A DNA stretch of 12,506 nt from Candidatus Fermentibacterales bacterium (lineage in GTDB: Bacteria; Fermentibacterota; Fermentibacteria; Fermentibacterales; JAFGKQ01). The position numbers and the translations under genes were made by a program. The DNA is taken from NCBI GenBank assembly GCA_016928495.1, contig JAFGKQ010000192.1, forward strand, positions 1-12,506, read 5' to 3'. Below are positions 1 through 12,506 of the stretch, one piece after another (position 1 is the first letter of the stretch; each line of letters opens with the position of its first letter). The notes under the pieces were generated by a model. The model saw nothing but the letters and a program-made list of their open reading frames with translations, did no database searches and was not told the DNA's origin.

Positions 1-540
1 GGCGCAGCTCAGGGGGAACTCGACGATGCGCTCCGTGGGCCGGTGGACGGACAGCGGGGCGTCCGGAATGCCGTAGTCCGGATGGAACCCGATGGGGAAC
101 ATCGACGAGTCGTACTCGATCCCCAGGTCGGCCATCACGTCCAGGGCCCAGCGAGTGCTGTCCACCAGGGTGAAGGAGGGTGCCCTGAATCCGATTATCT
201 CGCGATCCGGGCCCAGTTTCGTCACCTCGAGAGCCCGGCCGAGGTCATCGGCGAACGACTCGGGGGTCATGTGCGTGAGGAGGGTGTGGGAATAGCCGTG
301 TGTCGCGATCTCGTGGCCCTGCCGCTCGATCTCGTCTACCAGCTCCGGCACCCTTTCGGCGATCCAGCCGAGAACGAAGAAGGTGGCCTTCGTACCGTGC
401 GTGGCGAGGACCTCGAGGATGCTCTTCGTGCTGCCGGTTACCCGGAGCTCGCAGGAATCCCAGGCGCTCCTGCCGATGGCCTCGGTTATGTTGTTGGCGC
501 AGAACCAGTCCTCTAGATCAATGGAAAGGGCATTGATCAA
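1..540 (-). CDS. Polysaccharide deacetylase (NodB domain), 3' end outside window
   Basis: The first 180 codons of a NodB-fold polysaccharide deacetylase (carbohydrate esterase 4), a family that removes N-acetyl groups from cell-wall or exopolysaccharide sugars using a metal ion. Motif 1 is SIDLEDWF at residues 6-13, with metal-site Asp8 and the Asp/Glu pair after it. Motif 2 is HGYSH at 81-85 (HxxxH). Motif 3 is FRAPSF at 118-123. The opening INALSIDLEDWF matches the subfamily often linked to exopolysaccharide/exosortase loci. The start is TTG at 540: GGAGG lies five bases upstream, and the ATG overlapping that site is out of frame and stops at once. No signal peptide is visible, so a cytoplasmic or otherwise exported location is open. 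The family usually runs near 280 residues, so about a third is missing beyond base 1. Family call is firm; substrate unknown. Confidence 0.9.
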   Translation of the reverse strand, partial: MINALSIDLEDWFCANNITEAIGRSAWDSCELRVTGSTKSILEVLATHGTKATFFVLGWIAERVPELVDEIERQGHEIATHGYSHTLLTHMTPESFADDLGRALEVTKLGPDREIIGFRAPSFTLVDSTRWALDVMADLGIEYDSSMFPIGFHPDYGIPDAPLSVHRPTERIVEFPLSCA

Positions 541-570
541 GGCATCCTCCCGGAGCAAAAGCCGGGATAG

Positions 571-600
571 ACGATACTCGTGCCGGTACGGCGCGGTCAA
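571..600 (-). promoter_or_regulatory. Likely sigma70-type promoter for the deacetylase
   Basis: Read on the minus strand, TTGACC (595-600) matches the -35 consensus at five of six bases. It is followed after 18 bases by TATCGT (571-576), four of six to the -10 consensus. Transcription would begin around 564, leaving a leader of about 24 bases before the TTG start. The rest of the 541-752 divergent spacer holds only a lone GATAAT (715-720) on the plus strand as a possible -10 for the macrodomain gene, without a clear -35. The organism's sigma-factor preferences are unknown. Confidence 0.4.
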
Positions 601-752
601 CGAGTTCTCTGCCTGAGAGGCCACTCGCTGTCGCCGTGTCTTTACCGGAGAAGGCCGAAGGCTCATCGTACACGGGGCGCATCCGGAACGGGCGGCCGCA
701 ATGCCGGCCCAGTCGATAATCGGGCGAGTGTGACCCGGGAGGCCGCAACAGG

Positions 753-1271
753 ATGACCGTTGGGGTGAAAGCAGTTCTCGCCGACATCACGAAGCTCGAA
801 ATCGATGCCATAGTGAACGCCGCCAACGAGACACTGGCGCCTGGCGGAGGCGTGTGCGGAGCGATTCACAGGGCTGCGGGACCGGAGCTTGCGAAGGCCT
901 GTGCCAGGCTCTCGCCCTGTCCCACGGGCCAGGCCAGGCTCACTCCCGGCTTCGGTCTTCCCGCCGGGTTCGTTATCCATGCCGTTGGCCCCATGTGGCG
1001 GGGAGGAGGATCGGGCGAGCCAGGCCTCCTCGCGTCGGCCTATCGGCACTCGCTGCGCATCGCCCGCGATGAGGGCTTCGAGAACATCGCCTTCCCTGCG
1101 ATCAGCACCGGCATCTACGGCTATCCACTGGCCGAAGCGACCAGGGTCGCAGTAGGGACCGTGCGGGATGAGCTCGCGAGATGCCCCGGTATCCTGCGCG
1201 TTGACTTCGCCTGCTTCTCGGAGCAGGTGCTCGAGGCCTACCGCTCGGAGGGAGTGACTGATGAGGACTGA
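753..1271 (+). CDS. Macrodomain protein, probable O-acetyl-ADP-ribose / ADP-ribosyl hydrolase
   Basis: A 172-residue single macrodomain of the MacroD/YmdB type, which binds ADP-ribose and usually hydrolyses O-acetyl-ADP-ribose or removes ADP-ribose from acidic residues. Visible motifs are DAIVNAANETL at 18-28 (Asp18 for adenine, Asn22/Asn25 at the distal ribose), the glycine loop GGGVCGAIHRAAG at 31-43, HAVGP at 76-80, and the phosphate loop PAISTGIYGYP at 115-125. Length is typical of the stand-alone form. The ATG at 753 follows GGGAGG at a somewhat long distance. The gene overlaps the next one by 11 bases, so the two are probably co-translated. Family is certain; the actual substrate (metabolite, protein or nucleic-acid ADP-ribose) cannot be told from sequence. 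Confidence 0.95.
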   Translation: MTVGVKAVLADITKLEIDAIVNAANETLAPGGGVCGAIHRAAGPELAKACARLSPCPTGQARLTPGFGLPAGFVIHAVGPMWRGGGSGEPGLLASAYRHSLRIARDEGFENIAFPAISTGIYGYPLAEATRVAVGTVRDELARCPGILRVDFACFSEQVLEAYRSEGVTDED

Positions 1272-2307
1272 GGTGAGGAGAGAGGGCGGCAAGGTCTGGC
1301 TGGAGGGAATCAGCGGCTTCAGTCCCGCCGACTGCGCGAGCAGCGTCCACGGCGCTCAGGCGAGGATGCTCCGGGCACTCGGGGATCCACTGTCCTACGA
1401 GGACCTGGTCTGCTACGGCGGCTTTGCCTTCCGCGTGTGCGTCCACGAGAGGATGTGCCCCAGCGCCGCCCACCCGGCGTGCGGGTTCGACTGCATAGGA
1501 AGCGGCCTCCGCGCGATACCATGGAGAGGGAAGGTCTTCGAGATCCCGCCCGCCGGACGGGGGATGGACGACAGGGAGAGCTTCGAGGCCGAGGCGTACT
1601 CGGCAGTCAGGGACAGCATAGACCGGGGCGTTCCCGTGCAGTACACCGCCGAGGAGGACGGCCTGATCATCGGCTATGCCGACGAGGGACGGCGCTGGTG
1701 GTGTCTTCATCCCTATCACGAATGGGGCGAGAAGGCCTTCTGGCACGATGAGGCGGACGGCTTCTCCGGAGGCAAGTGGCCATGGATGATCGGGATCTGG
1801 ACGGACCCCGTACCGGAGAAGGAGCGCGTACCCGCGAGGGACCTCACCCTCGCTGCCCTGCAGCAGGCCGTAGAAATGTGGAAGGCGGGGAAGCGTGATG
1901 AGTACTACCTGGGCGACGCGGCCTACGGCCACTGGCTGGCGTGGCTGGAGGGCGTCGACTCCGGTGCGGTGGAGGACCCTTCAGCGGGCATGCGGGGCAA
2001 CGGCTGGTGCTTCGATGTTCTCACGAGCAGCAGGAGGATCGCCGGCGAATGGCTGGGGAGAAAGGCCGCCGGAATCGGCGGCGACGCCGGCCGATACCTG
2101 GGGAGCGCGGCGGAGTGCTACCGCAGGATCTCGGAGATCTGCTCCGAGAGCCTCAGGTGCTCCTGGGACCTTGCCCCCGGTCCGGAAAGGGCCGGGGAGT
2201 GGGACAGCGAGCTGCGAAGGCAGCAGATGTCGCGCCTGGAGTCATCGAGAAGGCTCGACGGGGGAGCGATCGACGCGATCGCAGCAGCCCTTCGGGTGCT
2301 TCGCTGA
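1261..2307 (+). CDS. Unknown 348-aa protein resembling the BtrH_N/DUF4872 (C39-peptidase-like fold) group
   Basis: A soluble protein without signal peptide or membrane helix. The layout resembles proteins annotated with BtrH N-terminal or DUF4872-like domains: an opening LEGISG (14-19), a cysteine at 25 within a helix, then SYEDLVCYGGFAFRVC (45-60), a Cys/His-rich stretch (HERMCPSAAHPACGFDC, 62-78), a GVPVQY segment (123-128) leading to GYADEGRRWW (138-147), and a helical C-terminal half in which AYGHWLAWL (221-229) and RRIAGEWL (258-265) are recognisable. In that group the N-terminal part has a papain/C39-like fold; whether Cys25 and a histidine form a working catalytic pair here is unproven. 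The ATG lies inside the end of the macrodomain gene (11-base overlap). The family link is from remembered patterns, so function stays open: peptidase, acyltransferase or non-enzymatic. Confidence 0.55.
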   Translation: MRTEVRREGGKVWLEGISGFSPADCASSVHGAQARMLRALGDPLSYEDLVCYGGFAFRVCVHERMCPSAAHPACGFDCIGSGLRAIPWRGKVFEIPPAGRGMDDRESFEAEAYSAVRDSIDRGVPVQYTAEEDGLIIGYADEGRRWWCLHPYHEWGEKAFWHDEADGFSGGKWPWMIGIWTDPVPEKERVPARDLTLAALQQAVEMWKAGKRDEYYLGDAAYGHWLAWLEGVDSGAVEDPSAGMRGNGWCFDVLTSSRRIAGEWLGRKAAGIGGDAGRYLGSAAECYRRISEICSESLRCSWDLAPGPERAGEWDSELRRQQMSRLESSRRLDGGAIDAIAAALRVLR

Positions 2308-2338
2308 CCGGACCCGTGCCTCAGGCCCTCGGGTCAGC
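2303..2338. terminator. Inverted repeat between convergent genes, possible bidirectional terminator
   Basis: The 13-base gap between two convergent stop codons sits inside nested complementary arms: GCTGACC (2303-2309) with GGTCAGC (2332-2338), and alternatively GACCCG (2311-2316) with CGGGTC (2330-2335), the latter enclosing a further GCCT/AGGC. No T-run follows on either strand, so this would not be a textbook intrinsic terminator. Placement across both gene ends is what supports it. Confidence 0.35.
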
Positions 2339-3556
2339 CACCCTTCCGATGAACAGGATCGAGCCCGTGAGGTCATCCATGACCAGGAACAGGAAGGGCT
2401 TGTCCACCCTGAACACGAAAGGCTGATGGGGCTGTGCGCTGGTGGTCATGTTCATGACCACGGCGGTCGCGGCCGCAGCCTCCGTGCCCGTCTCGTCCAC
2501 CTTCACGAACGCCTTGTGGATGACGGCGCTCACGAAGAGGTCCCTGCCTCCGGTGAACCCGCTGAAGTCCGCCAGCGCCTCGTCGAAGGCGTCCGTCATC
2601 CCCAGTGATATGAGGGCGTCATTGAGCATGAAGCCGGTCGAGAACTCGAACGAAGGCATGCTCAGTACCGTCTCGACGGGGCAGAGGCTGGAAAAGACAG
2701 CCTCCAGGGTCTCCCGGTCGAGTCCCTCCTCGAAGCCTGAAAGGTCTCCGTCCGGCAGGATGATCAGCATGCTGCTCAGAGCATCGGAGTAGGGAAGCCG
2801 GATGGCGGAGCATCCCGGGCCGCGGCCGGCACTGAAGGTATGGGTCTGGTGCATCATGGGGACCCTGACGATCGTGCCGTCGAGCAGCGTGAAGTCCTCT
2901 TCGCGCGTGACCCCCTCGTCGAACTCGCTCAGCCAGGTCCCCTTGAAGTAGATCGCATTCGTCAGGACGACCCTGGTAAGGCCGGTTATGGTCCCGGGGG
3001 CCAGGAGATCCTGTATCCTGTTGCTGGTCCTCTCACTGACCCACTCGTTGATAGTCAGTCTCTGAGTCTCCGGATCGTTGATGAAGTCGACGTTCCTGGC
3101 TTCGGCTCCATACTGCTCGACCACGATGTCGACGTAGTCGTCGAGTAGCCGGAAGCTCCTCTCCACCCAGATGGCATTGGCAACCTCGAGGATGAGCGGT
3201 TCCGCGTCCTCGTCTGCCAGCGCTGCCCTGTAGTCCGCGTCCATCCTGTCCAGAAGAGCATGGAAACAGGGGTGCAGGGACAGGTGGGGTAGCCTGAAGT
3301 GCAGGACATCGGCCATCTGTTCCTCTGTTCCGCCCCTGGCTCCTGCGTAGGTCATCCCCAGAGCCGACGAGATGCTGAACGGGGAGAAGAAGAGGTTCCC
3401 GTCGGATGCCTCGGCCGAGAGCAGCCCGAACATGTCCAGAGCGAACTCCGTGTTGCCGTCGACCAGGGCAGGCAGATCCTCCGCGGGGCTCGTCACGGAA
3501 GCCAGAGCAGGCTGGAGCAGAGCAGCCGCAAGAGCGATAATGGGCAGAAGTCTCAT
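2321..3556 (-). CDS. Serpin-family protease inhibitor with signal peptide
   Basis: A complete 411-residue serpin, a suicide inhibitor that traps serine or cysteine proteases. Residues 1-20 (MRLLPIIALAAALLQPALAS) form a Sec signal peptide, so it acts outside the cytoplasm. Core landmarks are NLFFSPFSISSALGMTYAGA (54-73), NAIYFKGTW (200-208), the hinge ETGTEAAAATAVVM (355-368) and the serpin signature FRVDKPFLFLV (382-392). The hinge has Gly at P15, Thr at P14, small residues at P12-P9 and Thr at P8, the pattern of inhibitory serpins. Counting 17 residues from Glu355 puts P1 near Thr371, but the distal loop is about five residues longer than in alpha-1-antitrypsin, so the scissile bond is uncertain. 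The start at 3556 is chosen over an in-frame upstream ATG because GGGAGGAGG precedes it and the signal peptide begins there. Confidence 0.95.
   Translation of the reverse strand: MRLLPIIALAAALLQPALASVTSPAEDLPALVDGNTEFALDMFGLLSAEASDGNLFFSPFSISSALGMTYAGARGGTEEQMADVLHFRLPHLSLHPCFHALLDRMDADYRAALADEDAEPLILEVANAIWVERSFRLLDDYVDIVVEQYGAEARNVDFINDPETQRLTINEWVSERTSNRIQDLLAPGTITGLTRVVLTNAIYFKGTWLSEFDEGVTREEDFTLLDGTIVRVPMMHQTHTFSAGRGPGCSAIRLPYSDALSSMLIILPDGDLSGFEEGLDRETLEAVFSSLCPVETVLSMPSFEFSTGFMLNDALISLGMTDAFDEALADFSGFTGGRDLFVSAVIHKAFVKVDETGTEAAAATAVVMNMTTSAQPHQPFVFRVDKPFLFLVMDDLTGSILFIGRVADPRA
2484..2546. repeat. Serpin paralogue repeat; second copy at 3820-3882
   Basis: These 63 bases and 3820-3882 align without gaps at 58 of 63 positions. 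They encode the stretch leading into the serpin reactive-loop hinge of each paralogue. Flanking coding sequence is also alike but more diverged, so the hinge-coding segment is either under stronger constraint or was evened out by gene conversion. Confidence 0.8.
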
Positions 3557-3659
3557 CTTCTTCCTCCTCCTCCCGTCATGTCGATAGGGAAACCCGGGGC
3601 CTCCCGCAGTCCTTACCGGATGCCGGCCCATGCTATTCCCGTCGGGCTGGCCAGGACCC

Positions 3660-4910
3660 TCAGATGGACGGATCGGCTACCCGGCCCATGAACAGTATGG
3701 AGCCGGTGAGGTCGTCCATCACGAGGAACAGGAACGGCCTGTCGAAGCTGACCTCTATGACAGGTGGCGGCGGCGCAGCAGCCAGCGCCATGACGACGGC
3801 CGTAGCGGCCGCGGCCTCGGTGCCCGTCTCGTCCACCTTCACGAATGCCTTGTGGATCACGGCGCTGATGTAGAGGTCCCTGTGTCCGGTGAATCCCGTG
3901 AAGTCCGCCAGGTCCGAGTCGAAGGCGTTCGTCATCCCCATCCCCTCGAGCGTCTCCTTGAGCGAGAAGGAGCTCGTGAACTCGAATGACGGTACCGCCA
4001 GGCTGATCCTCTCGTTGCGAAGGTCCTGGCCTATCGTCCGGAGATCCTCCGGGTCCAGGCTCCCCTCGAGTTCACCGATTTCCCCGTCGGGAAGAAGCAG
4101 CAGCATGCTGCTCTGGCCGTCCGAGTAGGGCAGCGAGACCGCCGTGCAGCCACAGCCCCGGTAGTAGGGGAAGCTCTCCGTCTGGTGCATCATCGGAACC
4201 TCGATGACGAAGCCGTCGGGAAGGGTGAACTCGTCGCTCCACGTGGAGTACTCGTCGAACTGGCTCATCCATGATGCCTTGAAGTAGACCGCATTCGTCA
4301 GCACCACCCTGGTGTCCGTGGTGATGGTACCGGGCGCGAGCAGGTCGCGTATCCTGTCCCTCGTCCGCCCGGCGACCCAGTCGTTGATAAGGATCCTCTG
4401 GGACTCCGGGTCGGCCCTGAAGTCGACGTTCCTGGCCTCCGCACCGTATTCCCGCTCCACCAGATCGACGTATTCATCGAGAAGGGGGAACGAGGACTGG
4501 ACCCAGATCGCATTCGCCACCTCCAGCGTGAGTGGCTCGGCATCCTGCGCGTACCGGGACGCCCTGTGCTCCGGATCGAGCTTCTGCCCCAGCTCGGCGA
4601 AAGAGGCGTGGAGGCTGGCCTGCGGCAGAGAGAAGCCGAGGACCTCCGTCATCTGGGACTCGGTCTCTCCCCTGGCCCCAGCCCAGGTCATGCCGAGAGC
4701 GCAGGACACGCTGTAGGGCGAGAAGAACAGGTTCTCGGCAGGACTCTCGGCGCAGAGTCTCTCGAACAGGGCAAGCGCGAAGCCCGTGTTCCCTTCCACG
4801 AGGGCCGGCAGGTCAGGAGCGGCCCCTTCCTGCTGCGGTTGCGGCTCCGAGTCGCAGGAGCCCTGGAACTGCATGACCGTCGCCAGCACCATTGTCAGGA
4901 TGGTCCTCAT
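3660..4910 (-). CDS. Second serpin, possible lipoprotein
   Basis: A 416-residue serpin paralogous to the one 103 bases downstream, in the same orientation and probably co-transcribed ahead of it. The N-terminus is a short hydrophobic leader ending in QFQGSC (14-19). Cys19 could be a lipidated cysteine followed by Asp20, but the -3 residue is Gln rather than Leu, so the lipobox is imperfect. A low-complexity EPQPQQEG linker follows. Serpin landmarks are NLFFSPYSVSCALGM (60-74), NAVYFKASW (206-214), hinge ETGTEAAAATAVVM (361-374, identical to the partner) and signature VSFDRPFLFLV (387-397). After the hinge the loop is ALAAAPPPPVIE, which puts P1 near Ala377 by spacing. Small residues there would suit an elastase-like target, an inference only. 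The ATG at 4910 has GGGAGGAG upstream. Confidence 0.95.
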   Translation of the reverse strand: MRTILTMVLATVMQFQGSCDSEPQPQQEGAAPDLPALVEGNTGFALALFERLCAESPAENLFFSPYSVSCALGMTWAGARGETESQMTEVLGFSLPQASLHASFAELGQKLDPEHRASRYAQDAEPLTLEVANAIWVQSSFPLLDEYVDLVEREYGAEARNVDFRADPESQRILINDWVAGRTRDRIRDLLAPGTITTDTRVVLTNAVYFKASWMSQFDEYSTWSDEFTLPDGFVIEVPMMHQTESFPYYRGCGCTAVSLPYSDGQSSMLLLLPDGEIGELEGSLDPEDLRTIGQDLRNERISLAVPSFEFTSSFSLKETLEGMGMTNAFDSDLADFTGFTGHRDLYISAVIHKAFVKVDETGTEAAAATAVVMALAAAPPPPVIEVSFDRPFLFLVMDDLTGSILFMGRVADPSI

Positions 4911-7375: not shown

Positions 7376-8074
7376 GTGGCCGAGTACTACGACGCCAGGG
7401 CGCCGTTGTACGATGCGACGGCCGGCTATGACGATCCCGTTGCGGAGGAGCTCCGCGCTCCCATGAAAGAGAGGTTCCGGAGGCTCCTCGAGGACAGGAA
7501 GGTGCTGGAGATCGCCTGCGGAACGGGCTACTGGACGGAGGTGATCGCACAGACCGCCGGATCGGTACTGACAACGGACGTCAACCCGTCCATGATGGCT
7601 ATTGCTTCCGAGAGGCTGCATGGTTTCCCCAACTTCGAGTTGATGGTCGCAGAAGCCTATGTGCTCGAAGGCGTTTCCGGAGGTTTCGATGCAGCCTTCG
7701 CACACTGGTGGTGATCTCACATGCCACGAAGGAGGGTCCCTGACTTGCTTGTGGCCCTGCACGCCACGCTCGAGCCCGGAGCGCTGATCCTGCTCCCGGA
7801 CCGGACCGCCGGTGCGGACCCGCAGGCGAGCAGGCGACTGGACACCTTCGGAGATACCCCGGAACGCAGGACGATTCCGGACGGACGTGTTTTCGAGGTC
7901 GTGAAGGACTTCCCCGCGGAGGACGGTATCAGCGGGGTGCTGGCAGACCATGCGCTCGATGCACACTGGAAGGTGTATCCTGACGAGCACACCTGGCAGT
8001 TGACCTGCAGGTTCTCGAGGGGCCGATCCGGGAGGTCGCCATGGCGGCTGTCTGATGAGGATCGACGGGGGTAA
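7376..8074 (+). pseudogene. SAM-dependent methyltransferase interrupted by one in-frame TGA
   Basis: Read through, this is one class I methyltransferase of about 232 positions. The first part has AEYYDARAPLYD (2-13), SAM motif I VLEIACGTGYWT (43-54), acidic Asp68 in LTTDVNPSM, and FDAAFAHWW (104-112), then TGA at 7712-7714. The same frame continues as SHMPRRRVPDLL and LEPGALILLPDR, the usual post-motif and beta-strand-5 region, through DGRVFEVVKDFP to a TAA at 8072. The upstream and downstream parts are both clearly homologous to one family, and no frame change is needed. From memory, relatives have another Trp just before Ser-His, so TGG to TGA is the simplest change. The ATG at 7721 has no ribosome site, so separate translation of the second half is unlikely. 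The GTG start at 7376 also lacks a clear Shine-Dalgarno, which fits decay. Alternatives: sequencing error or recoding. Confidence 0.75.
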
Positions 8075-10461: not shown

Positions 10462-10504
10462 GCGCGCCGGCAGCCCGTCACCCGCCGGCTGGCTCAGGGC
10501 GCGC
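10462..10504. repeat. GC-rich inverted repeat at the end of the exported-protein gene
   Basis: Outer arms GCGCGCC (10462-10468) and GGCGCGC (10498-10504) are perfectly complementary over seven bases. Inner arms CAGCC (10471-10475) and GGCTG (10487-10491) add a nested pairing. It spans the TGA of the minus-strand gene ending at 10494 and could act as a terminator or mRNA 3' end protector. No T-run; in DNA this GC-rich, chance pairing is possible. Confidence 0.25.
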
Positions 10505-11021
10505 CTGCCGCGTTCAGGGCAAGTGTCAGGAACTCCTCCAGGGCTGACGCTTCGAGCCCGGCTGCCTCGAGTCCAGAAGGCTCCAGCCTCTCGTAGAGCT
10601 CGCGGGCGACGACGCCGCTGCGGGGATCGGTGGAATAGAGGCTGAGCACCCTGCCTCCGGCGGAGATCTCGTAGTCGTAGACCAGGTCCCCAAGGGCAAG
10701 ATCGTGCGCTGGCGTGTCCTCCGGGTCTTCGTCCGGGCTCAGCGTCACCGAGCGCGGGTCCCCGCTCCCGAAGGCGGCTTCTCCCGCGACGAGGTCTACG
10801 GGCAGTGCGAGCACGAAGCCATCTCGTGACAGGAACAGCACCGCGGGGCTCCTTCTGACGGGGTTGCCCTCGATGTAGACGGAGAACCGCCTCCACAGCC
10901 CCTGGGGCTCATCGCCCGAAAGCGTGGAGAGGTGCTCGCTCAGGAGCCCTGTCCTCTCGCCTTCCCTTGGATCGCCTGCGAAACCGGGCAGGGCGATCAC
11001 CAGAACCAGGACAAGCTGCAT
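10494..11021 (-). CDS. Small exported protein, unknown family
   Basis: A 175-residue protein with an N-terminal hydrophobic stretch MQLVLVLVIALPGFAGD that looks like a Sec signal peptide with cleavage near Gly16-Asp17. The mature part has an aromatic/charged region (GLWRRFSVYIEGN), a beta-rich middle (AVLFLSRDGFVLALPVDLVAG), an acidic stretch (SPDEDPEDTP) and a leucine-rich C-terminal helix (LEAAGLEASALEEFLTLAL). No catalytic motif or named family is recognised. The ATG at 11021 has AGAGG upstream but gives a signal peptide with no basic n-region; a GTG at 11063 would add an Arg/Lys-rich n-region and has GGGAG about 11 bases ahead, so the true start could be there. It is divergent from the TIR gene, sharing a spacer of about 76-118 bases. 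Confidence 0.65.
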   Translation of the reverse strand: MQLVLVLVIALPGFAGDPREGERTGLLSEHLSTLSGDEPQGLWRRFSVYIEGNPVRRSPAVLFLSRDGFVLALPVDLVAGEAAFGSGDPRSVTLSPDEDPEDTPAHDLALGDLVYDYEISAGGRVLSLYSTDPRSGVVARELYERLEPSGLEAAGLEASALEEFLTLALNAAGAP

Positions 11022-11139
11022 GATGCCTCTGGAGTGCCGTCGCGCTTTCGCGGATTCCGTCACGATTCGATACGCTCCCGCATTGGTGGAGCATGGATAA
11101 TGTAGTAGAGTCTGCTCGACCAGCCTGGGAGGGAACTGC

Positions 11140-12506
11140 ATGCAGGGCACGAGTCCCGGGGCAGGACACATCTTCATCAGCCACTCCACGAGGGACATGG
11201 ACAGCTCCCTCAGGGTCTGCGCCCACCTCGAGACCAGCGGGCTCCGGTGCTGGATGGCTCCGAGGGACATCAGGCCCGGTTCGGACTGGGCCGAGGCGAT
11301 CATGATGGGTATCGCCGATGCCAGGGCGATGATCCTACTCCTGACCTCCAGCTCGAACCAGTCGGCCCAGGTTCGCAGGGAGGTCGAGCATGCGGTGAAC
11401 GCCGGCGTTCCCATCATCCCCGTAGTACTGGAGGGGGCCGAGCCCTCGATGGCCCTGAGGTACTACATCAGCGCTCATCAGTGGATGGAGGCGCCCGAAG
11501 GGCTCACGGATGCCTTCCTGGGCACTCTGGCCGGAAGCCTGAGGGAGCCGGCATCGAGGACTGCGGAGGCGCCGGTCCCGCCGGAGGCTGCCTCTGCCCC
11601 CCGGCAGCCAGCAGCACCGGTGCCTGCCGGGTCCCCCGGGGCGTCGAATCAGCAGGGAGCAGGAAGCAGGCGCCGGGCCTCGAGGCTCCCGAGGATCGTG
11701 CTCATCGTGGCAGTGATGGTCGTCATCGTGTTTGCTCTGCTCTTCATCAGGAAGGTGTCGGAGGTCAGGAGAGGCCTCGGTCTGGCGAACCGGCAGGCCG
11801 AGAGCGGAGACTGGCCGGCAGCCCTGAGGACGCTGGAGGAGATGGAGGGCAACCGTGCCGCGGACTCCCTCAGACAACGGCTGCTGCTGCAGGGCATCAG
11901 CGAGAGCCACAGAATGGCCCTGGACGCTCCCCGCCAGGAGGGCGAGGCTGCCCGCCGCAGATGGGCCGCGCTTCTGGCACTGCTCCAGGAGTACGCCAGC
12001 GACTACGGGCTCGATGGAGAGCAGGAACTGGAGCTGACCTGGACCCTCGGGGAGGCTCTCTCTGCTCTCGGTGCCCACTCGGATGCGGGCGATGTCTACA
12101 TGGAGATCGTCTGGAACGATGATCTCGAGCACGCCCGGGAGCAGGCCTGCGTCATGGCCTGCCGGTCCTACCAGAGAGCTTTCGATCAGGAGGAGGGGAT
12201 CGACTCCGCCGAGGTGCGGGCATTGCAGCTCGAGGCGCTCGAGATACTCGCGGAGGAGCATCCGGAGAGCGAGCACATCCTGCCGCTTGCCATGGATGCG
12301 GCCCGGCAGTGCCTGGCAACCGGGTTCCCGGACGATGCGCTCCGTCTGGCCATCCCGCTCTACGAGTCGAGCCCGGAGCCCGTGATACGGTCAGAGGCGG
12401 CACTGATAGCCTCTCTCGCGCTCGAGGCGCTCGGGGACGGTGAAAGAGCCGCGGAATGGCTTCTCAGGGCCCAGCTGGAGCAGGAACAGGACCCCGGGCA
12501 GACAGA
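11140..12506 (+). CDS. TIR domain protein with one membrane helix and helical-repeat region, 3' end outside window
   Basis: 455 codons are open to the window edge with no stop. Residues 9-120 are a TIR domain: HIFISHSTRD (10-19), RCWMAPRDIRPGSDW with the BB loop (36-50), MILLLTSSSNQS (64-75), VRREVEHAVNAGVPIIPVVLE (78-98) and YYISAHQWMEAP (108-119). Aligning the VRREV helix with SARM1 puts Glu81 at the catalytic glutamate, so NAD-cleaving activity is possible. A Pro/Ala/Gly-rich linker (about 136-176) leads to one membrane helix (185-204) flanked by basic residues on both sides, so its topology is unclear. From about 212 on there are TPR-like helical repeats (SGDWPAALRTLEEME, ALGAHSDAGDVYMEIV, TGFPDDALRLAIPLYES, EALGDGERAAEWLLRAQ). 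GGGAGG precedes the ATG by seven bases. A GATAAT (11096-11101) in the divergent spacer may be its -10. It may sense or scaffold through the repeats and signal through TIR; no partner effector is visible. Confidence 0.9.
   Translation, partial: MQGTSPGAGHIFISHSTRDMDSSLRVCAHLETSGLRCWMAPRDIRPGSDWAEAIMMGIADARAMILLLTSSSNQSAQVRREVEHAVNAGVPIIPVVLEGAEPSMALRYYISAHQWMEAPEGLTDAFLGTLAGSLREPASRTAEAPVPPEAASAPRQPAAPVPAGSPGASNQQGAGSRRRASRLPRIVLIVAVMVVIVFALLFIRKVSEVRRGLGLANRQAESGDWPAALRTLEEMEGNRAADSLRQRLLLQGISESHRMALDAPRQEGEAARRRWAALLALLQEYASDYGLDGEQELELTWTLGEALSALGAHSDAGDVYMEIVWNDDLEHAREQACVMACRSYQRAFDQEEGIDSAEVRALQLEALEILAEEHPESEHILPLAMDAARQCLATGFPDDALRLAIPLYESSPEPVIRSEAALIASLALEALGDGERAAEWLLRAQLEQEQDPGQT

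Follow-up and report, generated by a model that had tools for sequence, protein, structure and literature searches.

A tandem pair of predicted exported, inhibitory-type serpins in a Candidatus Fermentibacterales bacterium

Two intact open reading frames, serpin A upstream and serpin B downstream, lie head to tail on the minus strand of the window, the whole 12,506-nucleotide stretch of Candidatus Fermentibacterales DNA that we analyzed (contig JAFGKQ010000192.1), and sequence evidence supports their assignment as a paralogous pair of inhibitory-type serpins. The best reading of the pair is as predicted anti-proteases of the periplasm or cell surface, and comparison with related loci suggests that, as a bacterial tandem of inhibitory-type serpins, it is ordinary. 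A preliminary description of this DNA as holding two neighbouring exported serpins with the same hinge and different loops proved correct: both frames are open, PF00079 is matched at full length, and signal sequences can be read by inspection.

Serpin A (3660..4910, minus strand; 416 aa) matched the Pfam Serpin profile PF00079 with an E value of 7e-113 and chloropin (8gxv) with an E value of 1e-78, and a GGAGG ribosome site is located immediately 5' of its ATG. Serpin B (2321..3556, minus strand; 411 aa) matched PF00079 with an E value of 6e-112. As a mechanical open reading frame, B spans 2321-3631 (436 aa), but its true start is very probably the ATG at 3556, because GGGAGGAGGAGGAAGAAG lies directly 5' of that ATG and a clean signal peptide, MRLLPIIALAAALLQPALA, opens there; 103 bases then separate the stop of A from the likely start of B. 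Both proteins cover positions 2-370 of the 370 in the profile (E about 1e-112), that is, the full-length domain of the serpin superfamily (PF00079, MEROPS I4). Aligned with each other, they are 59% identical over the full protein and 64% identical in the body, and they are the sole serpins found in their own genome bin (2.3 Mb, 81% complete). AlphaFold2 models of A and B were confident (pLDDT 86 and 91, respectively), the hinge appeared as a strand in both, and serpin structures made up the best 50 structural matches throughout, those of miropin being among the matches to B. Many of the top matches were loop-inserted (latent or cleaved) serpin forms, which agrees with a predicted insertable loop and is no proof of activity. 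A pattern scan for promoters and terminators around the pair yielded none, an uninformative result, as only 0.4 promoters and 1.3 terminators were expected by chance.

The hinge, ETGTEAAAATAVVM (P17 to P4), is encoded at 3789..3830 in A and at 2453..2494 in B (both minus strand), and its 14 residues are the same in both copies, as stated at the outset. Inhibitory serpins have the hinge consensus ExGTEAAAA at P17-P9 (PMC8233489; likewise PMC10090351), and A and B both carry this pattern with its small residues. The position x is Thr in both; the papers list E/K/R there, and Thr, Ala and Ser were common at that position among the 128 related prokaryotic serpins, extracted from fetched loci, that served as our comparison set for hinge and loop. 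In this set, GTEAAAAT was present in 100 of the 128 proteins, the exact hinge core GTEAAAATAVVM in 40, and the whole 14-mer in six serpins besides A and B. These frequencies indicate that the identical hinge is the family consensus and is uninformative on recent duplication. A shared hinge as the mark of recent duplication or gene conversion was rejected, given the silent codon differences between A and B within ETGTEAAAATAVVM and the occurrence of the same residues in other serpins.

Signal sequences were judged by eye. That of B (MRLLPIIALAAALLQPALA; 3500..3556, minus strand) contains no Cys and ends in ALA|S, a signal peptidase I type of site in which a hydrophobic core is followed by A-x-A (LLPIIALAAALLQPALA|S, by inspection). 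In the signal sequence of A (MRTILTMVLATVMQFQGSC19; 4854..4910, minus strand), a hydrophobic stretch leads up to Cys19, but the residues just before it, Q-G-S, do not form a standard lipobox: with Gln at -3, QGSC strictly misses the pattern [LVI][ASTVI][GAS]C. Several relatives show good lipoboxes (LASC, VAAC and VSGC), and the lipoprotein-making enzymes Lgt and LspA are encoded in the same genome. Lipidation of A at Cys19 is possible, but the lipobox is poor.

The bait loop, taken from P3, is ALAAAPPPPVIEVSF in A (3744..3788, minus strand) and NMTTSAQPHQPFVFRV in B (2405..2452, minus strand). The residues that follow the hinge differ, as previously described (ALAAAPPPPVIE in A versus NMTTSAQPHQPF in B), and the loop of B is one residue longer. 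We counted the P1 register from the hinge and anchored it on the alignment with chloropin, whose published P1-P1' is Arg-Ser (PMC10090351). This register gives, by position, Ala-Ala at P1-P1' for A and Thr-Thr for B; Thr is the commonest residue at positional P1 (52 of the 128 related serpins). This assignment may be wrong, because cleavage of siropins 1 and 2 from Eubacterium siraeum occurs at P3-P2 and P6-P5, which lie two to five bonds upstream of where it would be expected (PMC5127057). Small, uncharged P1 residues would point to one broad elastase/subtilisin-like class of target rather than two. The two protease classes proposed in the preliminary description are accordingly not implied by the positional Ala and Thr; siropins with different loops share both of their targets (PMC5127057).

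On this basis, A and B probably constitute a suicide-inhibitor pair that would act in the periplasm or at the surface to protect the envelope. After export, a target protease would cut the exposed loop, by position at Ala-Ala in A and at Thr-Thr in B; the small-residue hinge would allow the loop to enter the central sheet, and in this move the protease, held covalently, would be carried across and distorted. The most likely beneficiaries would be envelope proteins, shielded from broad-specificity elastase-like or subtilisin-like serine proteases, the cell's own or those of neighbours. Within this scheme, we infer that the proteins inhibit proteases, which class they target and that their role is protective; the targets could also be cysteine proteases or proteases from other organisms. 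Self-protection, like the guard against secreted serine proteases that miropin is proposed to provide (PMC4404884), is possible by analogy, because the organism's own genome encodes subtilases with apparent export signals (three matches, at least two with such signals). One of these subtilases (L138, C187) appears to carry a signal peptide, and its C-terminal stretch (YPNPASDVV...IYFLRA) resembles type IX secretion sorting domains; two subtilases are encoded near each other on its contig.

Three characterized bacterial systems frame this proposal. Miropin, from Tannerella forsythia, is like B a bacterial serpin, and its structures were matched by the model of B; unlike B, to which it is 31% identical in the structural alignment, it comes from a host-associated pathogen. 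Thr serves as an active-site residue in miropin. Chloropin (Chlorobium limicola, PDB 8gxv), the closest solved serpin by sequence, resembles A and B in having the exact GTEAAAATAVVM hinge and in being exported, and it forms covalent complexes with proteases (PMC10090351); it differs in being a single gene as studied and in having Arg-Ser at P1-P1' where A and B have Ala-Ala and Thr-Thr by position. Siropins 1 and 2 are 63% identical, with RCLs that are 48% identical, one intracellular and the other extracellular, and both inhibit neutrophil elastase and proteinase 3 (PMC5127057). They resemble A and B in that a single bacterium carries two paralogues that share about 60% identity but differ in their loops and predicted locations; in the siropins inhibition is demonstrated, whereas in A and B it is predicted.

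Serpins are common in Candidatus Fermentibacterota, the host phylum, and 32 of 41 other genomes of the same order carry one. In a phylogenetic tree, A and B fall inside a Fermentibacterota clade with full support. With the loop columns removed, B grouped with the lone serpin of a relative (G005; support 92/83, not a starred branch), suggesting that B may be closer to that protein than to A; forcing A and B together cost 2.4 log units and was not rejected (AU p 0.19). A local duplication giving A and B is thus neither established nor excluded by the tree, and in any case the duplication is old, given the 64% body identity. A conserved neighbourhood was tried and rejected: the hemerythrin-like gene adjoining A was present in only 2 of 41 genomes searched, this one included, and the genes immediately flanking the closest singleton serpin (L135) are different ones.

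Several other genes are encoded in the window. A partial polysaccharide deacetylase at 1-666 (minus strand) is XrtA-system-like (TIGR03006, E 7e-59, below the cut-off on this fragment), and an open reading frame of 348 aa at 1261-2307 (plus strand) had no match in Pfam or NCBIfam. The methyltransferase gene at 7376-8074 (plus strand) has an in-frame TGA at 7712-7714 (HWW*SHMPRRR) with the frame open on either side, which reflects either disruption of the gene or a mistake in the assembly. At 11140-12504 (plus strand), a gene running off the end encodes a protein that opens with a TIR domain (PF13676, E 1e-22; ThsB_TIR matched weakly) and continues through a hydrophobic stretch into a long C-terminal part; the start of the gene is overlapped on the opposite strand by an open reading frame of 307 aa with no Pfam match (10494-11417, minus strand), the true start of which is probably further downstream.

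When the loops are aligned outward from the hinge, none of the 6 residues at P3-P3' is shared by A and B. When 189 serpin pairs with 60-68% body identity were compared, 31 likewise shared none, and other tandem serpin pairs share 0 to 2 of the 6 positions. At the codon level, pN was 0.505 in the loop versus a mean of 0.274 in equally short windows of the body, with 13 of 315 body windows as high, so that the faster change of the loop than of the rest of the protein, a check set out in advance, holds for these 14 codons of a single pair. Loop pS was 0.58, and loop dN was 0.84 versus a dS of 1.12. Positive selection on the loop was tried as an explanation and gave no signal, dN/dS being below 1 in a test that 14 codons and one pair make weak. 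The excess of loop change between A and B therefore appears ordinary for serpins and within the silent rate.

It is quite plausible, if just short of an even chance, that the two copies are redundant, their loops having drifted under relaxed constraint while retaining the same broad targets, so that the gain would be in dose or in location, one perhaps tethered to the membrane and the other soluble. Loop substitution within the silent rate, the different N-termini (Cys19 in A, ALA|S in B) and the shared targets of the siropins (PMC5127057) are consistent with such a pair. Close orthologues, however, keep the loop better (a mean of 4.4-4.8 of 6 positions at P3-P3' for 75-95% body identity), which argues that the loop is not generally unconstrained.

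Duplication followed by adaptive retargeting, in which selection drove the loops apart for two protease classes, would account for both the absence of shared loop residues next to a body that is 64% identical and the raised loop pN, but is unlikely: pairs of similar body identity often enough share no loop residue, dN does not exceed dS, both positional P1 residues are small and uncharged, and the grouping of B with a relative's lone serpin leaves local duplication unproven. What stands of this earlier reading is a paralogous pair of inhibitory-type serpins that bear export signals and whose loops have diverged beyond the body; the hinge turned out to be consensus, the loop changes below the silent rate, and local duplication is unestablished. 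Its fuller form, a lineage-specific duplication after which selection split one broad inhibitor into two targets and two envelope sites, one lipid-tethered and one soluble, is improbable. That one copy is a non-inhibitory carrier, chaperone or decoy serpin, as the composition of the B loop, which stands apart (NMTTSAQPHQPF), and its extra residue might suggest, is very improbable, as the hinge is usually broken in non-inhibitory serpins but is canonical in both A and B, and both retain the residues invariant across 30-32 aligned serpins.

Adjacent paralogues had been thought unusual, which was not borne out by the loci of other species: 11 of 80 contained two or three serpins within a single fetched segment, at most about 13 kb long, in a sample that was fetched with the A/B pair as query, is biased to its close relatives, and has contig ends that hide some neighbours. 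These multi-serpin loci, in which the loops are mostly different, belong to Dehalococcoidia, Zixibacteria, Phycisphaeraceae, Anaerolineaceae, Myxococcales and a Hermodarchaeota archaeon. The serpins of other Fermentibacterota genomes showed no further serpin next to them, and the tandem layout has so far been found only here within the phylum. The tandem pairs of Dehalococcoidia (L047, L050, L052, L054 and L055) are like A and B in their head-to-tail order, 61-65% body identity, kept hinge and different loops. Unlike A and B, they are conserved in five genomes, and the two copies form distinct clades with strong support, one having Lys and the other Thr at positional P1, making them, as judged from sequence, a stronger case for split specificity.

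The role of serpins in many prokaryotes has been called enigmatic (PMC8233489), and the text of that survey does not name Fermentibacterota; our literature search for serpins with Fermentibacter found nothing. To the question of what serpins do for free-living bacteria, A and B add one example, from a phylum unnamed in the survey. The pair also serves as a caution, in that serpin pairs by default combine one hinge with different loops, a combination that does not in itself indicate retargeting. Split specificity would be better examined in the Dehalococcoidia pairs, whose Lys and Thr baits are kept in five genomes.
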